From: an uncultured Candidatus Saccharibacteria bacterium
Lineage (GTDB): Bacteria > Patescibacteriota > Saccharimonadia > Saccharimonadales > Saccharimonadaceae
Assembly (NCBI GenBank): GCA_938038145.1
Contig: CALHQU010000042.1
Location: forward strand, 1 to 20,225
Reading direction: 5' to 3'
Length of the DNA: 20,225 nt
Part shown: piece after piece, positions 10,619-15,912 of the stretch
Numbering within the stretch: the stretch's first letter is position 1
How the letters are laid out: each line of letters begins with the position of its first letter
The notes under the pieces: model-generated
Databases searched by the model: none
What the model saw: the letters and a program-made list of their open reading frames with translations, nothing else
What the model was told of the DNA's origin: nothing
Translations under genes and position numbers: made by a program

Positions 10619-12271
10619 ATGGGGCGCGTTCGTAGTACAGTTACGAAAATAAATCAGCGGCTTAATGTGAAATTGGCTGCTACGATTATGGCTAGTTCGA
10701 CGTTGCTGTCGAGCTTGCTGGGATTTTTCCGTGATCGTCTACTAAACTCAGCCTACATGCCAAGTAAAAATGGAGCATTTGCAGGATATCCTGTTGGGCT
10801 GGATGCCTATACGGCAGCTTTCATGGTGCCAGATTTTATGTTTGCAGTGCTGGTTTCTGGTGCGCTTAGTGTGACGTTCATTCCAGTTTTTAATGAGCGC
10901 TGGGTCAAGGGTAATAAGCAGTCGGCTTGGCAAATTAGCTCGAGCATGATTAATTTCATGGCGCTAATAACTATGGCGGCGTCGGTGCTGATTATTATTT
11001 TCGCTGATCCATTGATGAAGTATTTAATCGCGCCTGGTCTGAGTGAATCTGGTCATGCTTTGGCGGTTAGTATGATGCAGGTGATCGCGGTTAATCCGTT
11101 TATCTTTGCGGTTGCGGCGGTGATTGCTAGTATTCAGCAAGCGGTCGGGCGATTTATGTTCTGTGCGCTGGCGCCAATGCTGTATAACGTCGGTATTATT
11201 ATCGGTACGGTGTGGTTCACTGGCGGCGTCAATTTATTCGGCTGGCAGATTTTTGACGGTGGCATTATGGGCGTGGCATTGGGTGTGGTTTTGGGATCAT
11301 TTTTACAATTGATCGTCAGTGCGGTTGGCTTGGCTGGGCTTGGTTTTGATTACAATTTCAAAATTTATTGGCGAAATAAGGGATTTAGGAAAGTTTTATC
11401 TTTATTGCCAGCGCGCTCTGTTGACCAAGGAATGGATTATGTGGTTAGCCTGGTCGAGGTCAATTTAGCTTCGCGCTTGGCCGATGGAACGGTTAGGGCA
11501 TACCAGCAGGCCTTGACTCTTCATATGATGCCGATCAATCTTATTGGCGTGGCGATTTCAAATGCCGCCTTTCCTCAATTGACTGAGCATTTGGGCGAAG
11601 GTCGAAATGACCTATTTCAAAAAGACCTGCGTTCCCTGTTGAGAATTATTTTTTGGATGGCACTTCCGGTATCGGTGGTGATTTTCTTTACCAGGGGATA
11701 CGTTGCGCACTTTATTAGTAACGGTGGTGATCAGCTGATTGCTGGAATTTTGGGCTGTCTGGTCGTGGCGATTTTATTCCGAACTATTTACCATATGGCC
11801 GCGCGAGCATTTTATGCCCGCCAAGACACGAAAACTCCGCTGTATATTTCAATTTTCTCGATTACTTTGAATATTATTTTAGCAATTGTTCTATCGATGG
11901 TCTTGAAAATGGGCGCGTATGGATTGGCTTGGGCTCAATCAACAGTGGCGGTTTTGGAAGTGGTCGTGCTTTTGGTGGTTATGAATCGTCAAATGCCAAA
12001 ATTATTCGACATGACGTTTGTGCGGGCGATTTTTAAGATGATAATTGCGGGTACTATTACGGGCGTGGTTTGTTATATTGCCGTGCTAATTATGCCGTTT
12101 CGTTATCATGACGACAGTTTCTTTAGCGCTTTTCCGAAATTTGTTATCATTTCATTGGTCAGTTTTGGTGCGTATGCCGCGGTTTCAAAGTGGTTAAAAT
12201 TGCCAGAAATTGACCCGATTCTTGCACGATTGAAAAAAGTGTTATTTGGACGATTGGAGTTTAAGGGCTAA
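10619..12271 (+). CDS. murJ: Lipid II flippase MurJ
   Basis: A MOP-superfamily integral membrane protein that flips lipid II to the outer face of the cytoplasmic membrane. Seen: the N-terminal signature MASSTLLSSLLGFFRDRLL (about 25-43), equivalent to the S-x-L-S-R-x-L-G-x-x-R-D motif of MurJ, some 13-14 hydrophobic segments over 550 residues, the central APMLYNVGIIIG (family A-P-x-L-x-N-x-x-I-I), and HMMPINLIGVAISNAAFPQLTE (family P-x-x-L-x-x-x-A-x-x-x-x-x-P-x-x-S-E). Together with murC it supports peptidoglycan synthesis in this organism. No clear ribosome binding site precedes the ATG, which lies 6 nt after ftsH, so translation may be coupled. Its TAA stop overlaps the lepA ATG by one base. 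Confidence 0.93.
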   Translation: MGRVRSTVTKINQRLNVKLAATIMASSTLLSSLLGFFRDRLLNSAYMPSKNGAFAGYPVGLDAYTAAFMVPDFMFAVLVSGALSVTFIPVFNERWVKGNKQSAWQISSSMINFMALITMAASVLIIIFADPLMKYLIAPGLSESGHALAVSMMQVIAVNPFIFAVAAVIASIQQAVGRFMFCALAPMLYNVGIIIGTVWFTGGVNLFGWQIFDGGIMGVALGVVLGSFLQLIVSAVGLAGLGFDYNFKIYWRNKGFRKVLSLLPARSVDQGMDYVVSLVEVNLASRLADGTVRAYQQALTLHMMPINLIGVAISNAAFPQLTEHLGEGRNDLFQKDLRSLLRIIFWMALPVSVVIFFTRGYVAHFISNGGDQLIAGILGCLVVAILFRTIYHMAARAFYARQDTKTPLYISIFSITLNIILAIVLSMVLKMGAYGLAWAQSTVAVLEVVVLLVVMNRQMPKLFDMTFVRAIFKMIIAGTITGVVCYIAVLIMPFRYHDDSFFSAFPKFVIISLVSFGAYAAVSKWLKLPEIDPILARLKKVLFGRLEFKG

Positions 12272-13101
12272 TGGAAAATATTCGGAATTTTTGTATTATT
12301 GCTCACATTGATCACGGCAAGTCTACGCTGGCTGATCGAATGATGGAGATGACTGGGACTGTAGAAAAGCGCGAAATGAAATCGCAGTTGCTGGACTCAA
12401 TGGATTTGGAGCGGGAAAAGGGCATCACTATTAAGCTGGCGCCGGTGCGGATGCGATATAAAAATGTCGATTTGAATTTGATTGACACTCCGGGGCATGT
12501 CGATTTTAGCTATGAAGTCTCGCGCAGTTTGCAGGCTTGTGAGGGCGCGATATTGGTGGTTGATGCTAGCCAGGGAATTCAGGCGCAAACATTGTCGAAC
12601 GTTTATCTGGCGATGGAACAGGATTTGACAATTATTCCGGTGTTAAATAAGGTTGATTTGCCGGCCGCCGATATACCGCGCGTATCCAGGCAAGTCATTA
12701 ATTTGTTGGGCTGCGATGAGAGCGAGATTATTCATATTTCTGCTAAAACTGGTCAAAATGTAGACAAGGTTTTGGATGCGGTTGTCGATAAAATTCCGGC
12801 GCCAACTGGCGAGGCTGATGATCCGACTAGGGCGTTGATTTTTGATAGCTATTATGACGATTATCGTGGCGTGATTTTATATGTGCGGGTGGTTGACGGG
12901 CGAATTAAAAAGGGCGAATCTATCCGAATGATGGCGACTGGCGCAAATGGACTAGCTCTGGAAGTTGGTCATCTTAACCCAGCCATGCAGCCCGACCCTT
13001 CGCTTGAAACTGGCGAAATTGGCTATATTGTGACAAACCTGAAGACGACACGCGAGGCGCGGGTTGGCGATACGGTAACACTGGGGAGATATTTTAATTA
13101 A
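12271..13101 (+). CDS. lepA: Elongation factor 4 (LepA), N-terminal half: GTPase domain and domain II
   Basis: A translational GTPase half. Seen: G1 AHIDHGKST (11-19), G2 REKGITI (about 48-54), G3 DTPGH (72-76), G4 NKVD (126-129), G5 SAK (157-159), then the beta-barrel domain II up to VGDTVTLG (about 264-272). All catalytic motifs, including His76, are intact. The frame then stops after RYFN at 276 aa. Intact LepA is about 600 aa and continues directly into domain III from here. The missing remainder lies at 14950-15912. Nothing in the N half suggests decay. It overlaps the murJ stop by one base, so it is translated from the ftsH-murJ transcript. Confidence 0.92.
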   Translation: MENIRNFCIIAHIDHGKSTLADRMMEMTGTVEKREMKSQLLDSMDLEREKGITIKLAPVRMRYKNVDLNLIDTPGHVDFSYEVSRSLQACEGAILVVDASQGIQAQTLSNVYLAMEQDLTIIPVLNKVDLPAADIPRVSRQVINLLGCDESEIIHISAKTGQNVDKVLDAVVDKIPAPTGEADDPTRALIFDSYYDDYRGVILYVRVVDGRIKKGESIRMMATGANGLALEVGHLNPAMQPDPSLETGEIGYIVTNLKTTREARVGDTVTLGRYFN

Positions 13102-13104
13102 GAT
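13057..13104 (+). repeat. lepA-N terminal segment, copy 1 of a 48-bp direct repeat
   Basis: The last 14 codons, stop and three more bases of lepA-N (A-R-V-G-D-T-V-T-L-G-R-Y-F-N-stop-GAT). It matches 13479-13526 at 43 of 48 positions by my alignment. Homology starts at the GCG codon and ends exactly after TAAGAT. Confidence 0.9.
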
Positions 13105-13118
13105 TAAAAAGGGAAACC

Positions 13119-14839: not shown

Positions 14840-14927
14840 AGCTAGACGTTAGCGAAAAAAAGTATATTCTACAATTAGCAAAAGACGAAACTGCATACCG
14901 GAAGACGATCTTTATCCATAATAAAAA

Positions 14928-14936
14928 TGGTATAAT
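14928..14936 (+). promoter_or_regulatory. Extended -10 promoter of the lepA C-terminal half
   Basis: TGGTATAAT at 14928-14936, in the context AAAAATGGTATAATATC, lies 13 nt before the proposed lepA-C ATG at 14950. A GAGG lies at 14945-14948, too close to the ATG for a good Shine-Dalgarno. Confidence 0.55.
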
Positions 14937-14949
14937 ATCTACCGAGGAT

Positions 14950-15912
14950 ATGATCAAAGAAATTACCGTCCAACCACTTCCAGGTTATAAAGAAGTTAAG
15001 CCCTTCGTTTATGCGGGGTTTTTCCCAGTGTCCAATGAAGACTATAACGATTTGAAAGAGGCAATTGAAAAGTTGAGCCTGAGCGATTCGGCGTTACAGT
15101 TCGAGCCGGAGAATTCGCCGGTTTTGGGTTATGGTGTGCGAATCGGTTTTTTGGGATTGCTACATATGGACATTATTCGCGAGCGATTGGAGCGTGAATA
15201 TAATTTGGATTTAATTGTGACCAATCCGAGTACTGATTATCAAGTTAGTTTGACGAATGGCGAGGAGTTGGATATCAAGTCTGCTAGTGAATTGCCCGAC
15301 CCAGCGCAGATAAAAGAGATTCGTGAGCCGTGGATTGATGGTGAAATTGTTGTGCCGCAGGATTATATTGGTGCGGTGATTCAGCTGATTGTGAGTAAGC
15401 GTGGTCGCCAGAAAAACCTGAGTTATATTGACGAGCGGGCGCTGATTTCATTTGCGGCGCCACTTGCGAATTTGTTGACGGATTTTTATGACCAATTGAA
15501 GTCGATCACCAGCGGCTACGGTTCGTTTAATTATGAGTTAGCGGATTATCAAGTGGAAGATTTGGTGCGAGTTGATTTTTATGTAGCGGGTGAGATGGTT
15601 GATTCGTTGAGCGTAATGTGCCATCGGTCGGAATCGCAGCATTTGGGACGCGAGATTGTTAAGAAGTTGAAAGAAGTCGTGCCTCGTCAGAGTTTTGAGG
15701 TTTCATTGCAAGCGGCAATTGGCGGTAAATTTATTGCCAGGGAAAATATCGGCGCTTATCGAAAAGATGTTACGGGCTATCTTTACGGCGGCGATGTCAG
15801 TCGTAAAAAGAAGCTTCTCGCCAAGCAGGCGCGTGGTAAAAAACGAATGAAACGCTTTGGTAAAGTCGACATACCGAGCGAAGCGTTTATGGTAATGTTG
15901 AAAAGGGACTAA
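14950..15912 (+). CDS. lepA: Elongation factor 4 (LepA), C-terminal half: domains III-V and CTD
   Basis: Encodes the rest of EF4. It begins MIKEITVQ and enters recognisable LepA at PLPGYKEVKPFVYAGFFPV, followed by ENSPVLGYGVRIGFLGLLHMDI, YASL-type GYGSFNYELADYQ, HRSESQHLGREIVKKLKEVVPRQSF, and the LepA-specific C-terminus YGGDVSRKKKLLAKQARGKKRM. With this start the protein is 320 aa, and 276 plus 320 gives 596, matching a full LepA of about 600. An upstream in-frame ATG at 14797 would overlap the NUDIX gene by 43 nt and add residues unlike LepA, so I prefer 14950, which follows an extended -10 box. Conserved positions look intact, suggesting a functional half rather than a decaying fragment. 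Confidence 0.85.
   Translation: MIKEITVQPLPGYKEVKPFVYAGFFPVSNEDYNDLKEAIEKLSLSDSALQFEPENSPVLGYGVRIGFLGLLHMDIIRERLEREYNLDLIVTNPSTDYQVSLTNGEELDIKSASELPDPAQIKEIREPWIDGEIVVPQDYIGAVIQLIVSKRGRQKNLSYIDERALISFAAPLANLLTDFYDQLKSITSGYGSFNYELADYQVEDLVRVDFYVAGEMVDSLSVMCHRSESQHLGREIVKKLKEVVPRQSFEVSLQAAIGGKFIARENIGAYRKDVTGYLYGGDVSRKKKLLAKQARGKKRMKRFGKVDIPSEAFMVMLKRD

Follow-up and report, generated by a model that had tools for sequence, protein, structure and literature searches.

The window analysed here, a 20,225-nucleotide stretch of DNA from an uncultured Saccharibacteria bacterium, carries lepA, the gene for the translational GTPase EF4, in two parts. The split lies at the linker between domains II and III and is real: an N half (lepA-N) encodes the G domain and domain II, a C half (lepA-C) encodes domains III and V and the C-terminal domain, and about 1.85 kb of other DNA separates them. 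Both halves are full-length, they are kept together in many species, and the cut lies in an interdomain linker. We consider it probable that EF4 is made in these bacteria as two proteins that reassemble, probably on the ribosome, and take over the task of the one-chain factor.

The two lepA halves of the window

The two proteins were compared with the EF4 profile TIGR01393 and with E. coli LepA (3cb4). Residues 3-271 of the lepA-N protein match model positions 2-275, and the lepA-C protein matches positions 278-594 of 595. The scores were 427.7 and 439.2 bits, respectively, each below the curated full-length cut-off of 533.9. On E. coli LepA, lepA-N covers residues 1-278 and lepA-C starts at 283. 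Since residues 279-282, which belong to the II-III linker, are the part left uncovered by the halves, only linker residues are missing. The first-pass annotation, a reading of the window from its sequence, had placed the cut at the II/III boundary, and both alignments agree with this.

All five G motifs that were sought are present in lepA-N (residues 12, 51, 72, 126, and 157), and the histidine of its DTPGH motif, H76, aligns with E. coli LepA H81, which was reported to be critical for GTP hydrolysis in an EF4 study (PMC4339808). Across the halves the EF4/LepA domain set is complete, with domains II, III, and V and the LepA-specific C-terminal domain. The first-pass annotation had correctly recognized the intact G motifs of the N half, the LepA-specific C-terminus of the C half, which was also found by alignment to E. 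coli LepA, and the extended -10 element before lepA-C (Table 1). Judged by its sequence, the locus is best described as a two-gene form of EF4 and not as a standard member of the family. The lepA-C frame can also be opened by ATG 14797. The C halves of relatives begin 4-12 codons ahead of the PLPGY motif, and because ATG 14950 lies 8 codons ahead of it, this start fits the window gene.

The cut in related genomes

Locus-level comparison of 150 relatives showed the same cut in many genomes of the family (f1). In a profile survey LepA_C was matched in 155 of the 164 family genomes, and the II|III cut occurred in at least 35 of these 155, distributed over 22 genus groups; this is a lower bound, as the survey does not list every match and some matches lie at contig ends (e.g. 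G078, G331, and G308). G003, G005, and the newly found loci were classed as split from locus-level inspection, outside the LepA_C survey. Most other listed rows were full-length frames. Genus group g1 is mixed, with intact genes in G004 and G007 and split genes in G001, G002, G003, G005, G006, and G009. Both halves were present in all 35 split genomes except G307, in which the contig ends just before lepA-C.

Among the loci examined, murJ was the upstream neighbor of lepA in 12 of 13 intact and 13 of 15 split ones; the other two split loci are on stretches whose start is near lepA. The occurrence of murJ upstream of intact and split loci alike indicates that the cut happened in place; gmk on the 3' side of lepA was less regular. 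Because relatives carry an undivided orthologue in the same position, the split qualifies as gene fission. In G021 the two halves, both full-length frames, are located 25 kb apart on opposite strands. No second lepA was seen in relatives of 99% completeness such as G006 and G009, which have one LepA_C match each.

Form of the cut

In the window and 34 other genomes the N halves end in GDTV[TS]L followed by 4-9 residues. At the third position of this tail 32 of the 35 have Y, and 25 fit the pattern.[KR]YF; the listed linkers of intact genes, such as VKRAHATEPLPGYK, have no Y there. Of 28 loci, 12 have a four-base overlap between the N-half stop and a start codon (11 ATG, 1 GTG); the window locus has no such overlap. 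A short Shine-Dalgarno-like motif is encoded in the tail in 11 of these 12 loci, a count of short motifs that comes without a chance control. The halves nearly adjoin in G069, with 35 nt separating the two profile matches. In 10 of 27 loci the lepA-C start is preceded at 5-13 nt by a TATAAT-like box (mean 3.2 and maximum 8 in 500 shuffles), which is predicted to give an mRNA with a short leader.

The N halves of L033, L046, L132, L133, L134, L135, L139, and L218 carry in-frame inserts near residue 60 (between G2 and G3) and/or in the linker between the G domain and domain II. Some of these resemble what we take to be translated repeat elements (VIASEAKQS, HPELVSGS).

Selection on the two halves

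Ratios of nonsynonymous to synonymous substitution rates (dN/dS) were calculated by the Nei-Gojobori method, by which pairs with saturated dS give no ratio. The values for the N and C halves, respectively, were 0.024 and 0.007 for the window and G001, 0.057 and 0.017 for L052 and G005, 0.078 and 0.016 for G006 and G009, 0.102 and 0.008 for G003 and G009, and 0.065 and 0.065 for G012 and G050. The highest ratios, 0.141 and 0.121, were obtained with the C half of G002, the start region of which is disturbed. Both halves are under purifying selection in the pairs with measurable dS. The first-pass annotation had favored a functional two-subunit EF4 over recent breakage, a preference that gains from the shared cut, the recurring tail, and these low ratios.

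Pairwise distances in the N and C halves correlated with r = 0.56 in 26 split rows (G069, G005, G002, and G001 left out). Subsamples of intact rows (G078, G010, and G019 left out) gave a mean of 0.63 with a standard deviation of 0.09. In 40 permutations the correlation was at most 0.23; shared ancestry contributes to the observed values.

Possible spread of the split form

The history of the split was examined by approximately unbiased (AU) tests with 27 of the 30 split rows and 28 intact rows out of 116, leaving out G069, G005, and G002. One split clade was rejected on all columns (p 0.002, 9 state changes), on domain I (p 0.023, 11 changes), and on domain V plus the C-terminal domain (p close to 0, 11 changes). 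On domain III it was not clearly rejected (p 0.084, 9 changes), and with domain II it was compatible (p 0.44, 3 changes). A single split followed by vertical descent was thus discarded on all columns, though domain II alone allows it. When segments were compared over all 116 rows, 5 changes were counted near the cut in the N half versus 9, 11, and 15 elsewhere.

The sister pair G049 (split) and G090 (intact) has identities of 0.86-0.98 outside domain II and of 0.73 and 0.59 in the two domain II bins. Domain II is variable in general, with same-state pairs at about 0.71-0.90 apart from the near-identical pair of the window and G001. Mixed-state pairs are lower in this domain, except L052/L072 (0.77 and 0.85). 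Since domain II groups by state and mixed pairs are lower, domain II and the cut behave as one block. The simplest reading suggested by these alignments is that domain II and the fission moved together between lineages by homologous recombination. Synonymous sites are saturated, which makes the recombination signal unreadable there.

An alternative for the spread is that the split arose several times and that domain II became alike through selection of the same residues, with no transfer of a block. Signature residues, among them H232 and D240, might make up for the missing linker, and divergence at synonymous sites is too high for a test of transfer. Against such parallel adaptation, domain II alone fits one split clade while the other domains require 9-11 changes, and the recurring N-half tail suggests one origin. 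We regard parallel adaptation as possible but doubtful and prefer block transfer.

A tree of rpoB also shows split and intact genomes intermixed. It weighs little because G049 has two rpoB genes and some bins may be contaminated. These two rpoB genes of G049 (L174 and L182) are on different contigs of one assembly with an estimated contamination of 1%. The intact lepA of L072 has an unusually short linker (VTVGGRTHPLPGYK) and a split-like domain II; from its sequence it is perhaps a re-fusion of a split lepA.

The insert of the window and gap cargo in relatives

Table 1. Features of the split lepA locus and its surroundings in the window
Feature	Position	Strand	Basis or remark
murJ-like flank upstream of lepA-N (presumed name)	10619..12271	+	neighbor in most relatives examined, intact or split
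lepA-N, EF4 G domain and domain II, 276 aa, C-terminal end GDTVTL-GRYFN*	12271..13101	+	open reading frame (ORF), profile matches
lepA-N 3' end, first copy of 48-nt direct repeat	13057..13104	+	repeat comparison
MazG-like frame, probably impaired	13110..13433	+	Pfam and NCBIfam matches
Scar, second copy of lepA-N 3' end, 48 nt, 90% identical	13479..13526	+	repeat, E 2e-10
183-aa ORF, function unassigned	13525..14076	+	no Pfam, PADLOC, or NCBIfam match
Scar, lepA-C fragment, 78 nt, 83% identical to 15059-15136	14163..14240	+	repeat, E 1e-17
NUDIX hydrolase, 189 aa	14270..14839	+	profile matches
Promoter-like TATAAT with upstream TG (TG-n-TATAAT), 13 nt before lepA-C ATG	14931..14936	+	motif; would give a short-leader mRNA
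lepA-C, EF4 domains III and V and C-terminal domain, 320 aa, start ATG 14950	14950..15912	+	ORF, profile matches
Guanylate kinase (gmk) flank downstream of lepA-C	16383..17093	+	profile match; also 3' of lepA in several intact relatives

Gene content turns over in the gap between the lepA halves, and some of the loci carry lepA scars. The insert of the window had been annotated in the first pass as MazG-like, unknown, and NUDIX genes. All three were found, the MazG-like gene with an altered start; the two lepA scars had been overlooked. Positions 13119-13121 read ACG where the relative G001 has the ATG start of MazG, so the window gene is probably impaired; a 73-aa reading from an internal start remains. 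A second lepA-N end lies ahead of the 183-aa ORF. A defence island was considered and rejected, as PADLOC matched only the NUDIX gene among the window insert genes (PDC-S07, E 1.8e-8).

In 28 loci the inserts between the halves range from 5 nt to 6.7 kb, and 75 of their ORFs of at least 80 aa point in the lepA direction and 11 against it. The commonest Pfam families among 83 cargo ORFs, with 2-4 members each, were HTH, peptidase S51, GNAT, and NUDIX; G002 was left out of this list because it has the same arrangement as G001. Between the window and G001 the N halves hardly differ (dN 0.006), yet their inserts have only the MazG part in common, which points to fast cargo change. G001 and G002 contain a gene, which we take to be SWEET-like, flanked by repeats of about 57-59 nt in which the end of lepA-N and the start of MazG are included. 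The lepA-N end has left scars in 6 of 28 inserts (the window, G001, G002, G003, G068, and G081), three of them also by blastn, and in G068 and G081 the scar forms the end of a cargo ORF. The other 22 inserts gave no clear copy in this search; G011 and G037, slightly above the best of 30 shuffles for the lepA-N repeat, were left out of the six.

Elsewhere in the window, the gene at 4972-6345 presumably belongs with pyridine-nucleotide disulphide oxidoreductases, which it resembles, and the adjoining short ORF at 6351-6638 resembles what we take to be an ATP-cone domain.

Other cuts of EF4

A cut between the G domain and domain II (I|II) was found in five family genomes, four in genus group g11 (G019, G303, G317, and G327) and one in g2 (G010). 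In G317 stop and start overlap at this cut and the C part begins with MKPLKALIFDSYYDDYRG. In f47, a distant family of the same phylum, a stand-alone EF4 G-domain gene was present in five of six sampled genomes and a LepA_C gene also in five of six. The two genes are about 75 kb apart on one contig in G196, whereas G214 has three unlinked genes that match TIGR01393 positions 2-183, 190-390, and 376-595. The start of domain II looks damaged in G227. Recoding of TGA in f47 is not supported, since TAA or TAG terminates 9 of the 11 pieces and glycine is encoded by GGN. LepA G-domain proteins of 162-223 aa are numerous in protein databases and may include fragments from contig ends.

A probable two-protein EF4 and alternative explanations

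The split form probably arose when the gene was divided with its stop and start overlapping, an arrangement that G069 still has. The gap would then have become a place where foreign genes come and go. In some loci this would involve recombination for which the lepA halves provide the homologous sequence, with lepA scars as its traces. The promoter-like box before lepA-C would free the C half from the upstream inserts, and the fission together with domain II would pass between lineages via homologous recombination. The two products, a G-domain/domain-II GTPase and a domain III/V/C-terminal domain protein, would meet, probably on the ribosome.

Several points weigh against this picture of a working two-protein EF4 and its history. 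Physical assembly of the halves and preserved function are deduced from the sequences. The tail may serve as a ribosome-binding site, a reading that depends on short motifs lacking a control. The G002 C half has no in-frame start region, clear lepA-N scars are confined to the six inserts, and a lepA-C scar was seen in the window and in one weak case, G037. The test on domain III did not clearly reject one split clade. Finally, nine of the 164 family genomes have no LepA_C match; eight of these are only 63-86% complete, and the ninth, G075, is 98% complete, so LepA may be dispensable.

The halves could instead have separate jobs, one as a free G-domain/domain-II GTPase and the other as a ribosome-binding III-V-C-terminal domain protein, with no joint action. 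The pieces at unlinked loci in G021 and f47, where assembly from one mRNA is not needed, would suit this, as would the report that removal of the C-terminal domain leaves E. coli EF4 with its intrinsic GTPase activity and able to bind ribosomes (PMC4339808). The retention of both halves in all split genomes apart from the truncated contig of G307 and the LepA-specific C-terminus of the C half speak for joint action, as do N/C distances that are correlated much like those of one-chain EF4, although common ancestry would produce this too. Separate jobs are unlikely. That lepA was broken by insertion and is being lost is very unlikely: G075 suggests that loss may be tolerated and G002 lacks an intact start region in its C half, but dN/dS is low in both halves, both are full-length open frames, and the cut spans the 22 genus groups with a recurring tail.

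Rejoining of the halves after transcription or translation, by an intein, by splicing, or by a stop read as an amino acid, is scarcely plausible. Apparent open frames of 763-1042 aa across both halves in four genomes turned out to be merged ranges, and the same loci show separate frames with stops between them. G069 leaves only 35 nt for an intervening element, nine of the 11 f47 pieces end in TAA or TAG with glycine encoded by GGN, and an intein is discounted by the 4-9 residues past GDTV[TS]L and by the lack of an intein model among the matches of either half. An assembly artefact or chimera at 13101 or 14950 has a negligible chance even though the data are assemblies, many of them metagenomic: the same junction, which the first pass had named as a possible error, occurs in 34 other assemblies, and the best 120 listed lepA-N homologues, from a search whose length limit excludes one-chain LepA, are all 276 aa with 99-100% identity, one sequence being found on 191 contigs of which the longest has 771,907 bases.

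Relation to known systems and significance

The two-gene EF4 shares its domains and G motifs, their order, and usually its upstream neighbor with one-chain EF4/LepA (TIGR01393; 3cb4, 2ywe, 5imq), and differs in having two polypeptides, three in one genome, with their own starts and stops and with each half under the curated cut-off. By analogy, the nearest precedent found is that of split tRNA-synthetase genes, in which a conserved translation gene likewise exists as two genes that are sometimes unlinked; examples reported are Aquifex LeuRS, Nanoarchaeota AlaRS, and Altiarchaeales pheT at non-adjacent loci (PMC4975002). Here the gene encodes a translational GTPase, more than one domain linker is cut, the state varies within genera, and the gap holds cargo.

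Homology-facilitated illegitimate recombination similarly brings foreign DNA to a homologous gene and leaves partial duplications, as described after single-crossover integration in E. coli (PMC3240628); for the lepA gap this mechanism would follow from no more than short repeats present in a subset of loci. Natural competence is reported for Saccharibacteria (PMC10633639). The literature search aimed at split EF4 covered full texts, with few subscription journals, and gave no such case among the listed matches. According to one paper lepA occurs in over 80% of genomes of the candidate phyla radiation (CPR), and the word 'split' is absent from that paper (PMC12641178).

The inserts share with integrons the small, mostly co-oriented genes at one site that we take to be typical of cassettes. 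An integron cassette array was nevertheless rejected, given that the lepA-N end is clearly repeated in so few inserts and that no shared attC-like site was found in the 28 inserts. No integrase was found among the window insert ORFs or the 25 of 91 cargo families looked at.

In translational GTPases the effect of GTP hydrolysis is generally considered to be relayed from the G domain and domain II to the remainder of the polypeptide. A natural EF4 without a covalent II-III link, kept for a long time, would provide a direct test of whether this link is needed. The function of EF4 is a matter of debate; in E. coli, backgrounds are reported in which a lepA deletion has a growth phenotype (PMC4245954). 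Several lineages are cut at I|II or II|III and one genome at III|V, and these sites outline the modules into which EF4 can be separated. Searches that apply a full-length score cut-off overlook lepA in these lineages, and the locus offers a simple model for how a conserved gene turns into a gene-insertion site. We tentatively propose that EF4 in Patescibacteria may be a modular multi-subunit GTPase of two or three proteins, and that the split form in Saccharibacteria may be a recombining allele in which domain II and the cut spread between species together, forming a landing platform for foreign genes that is held by conserved flanks.

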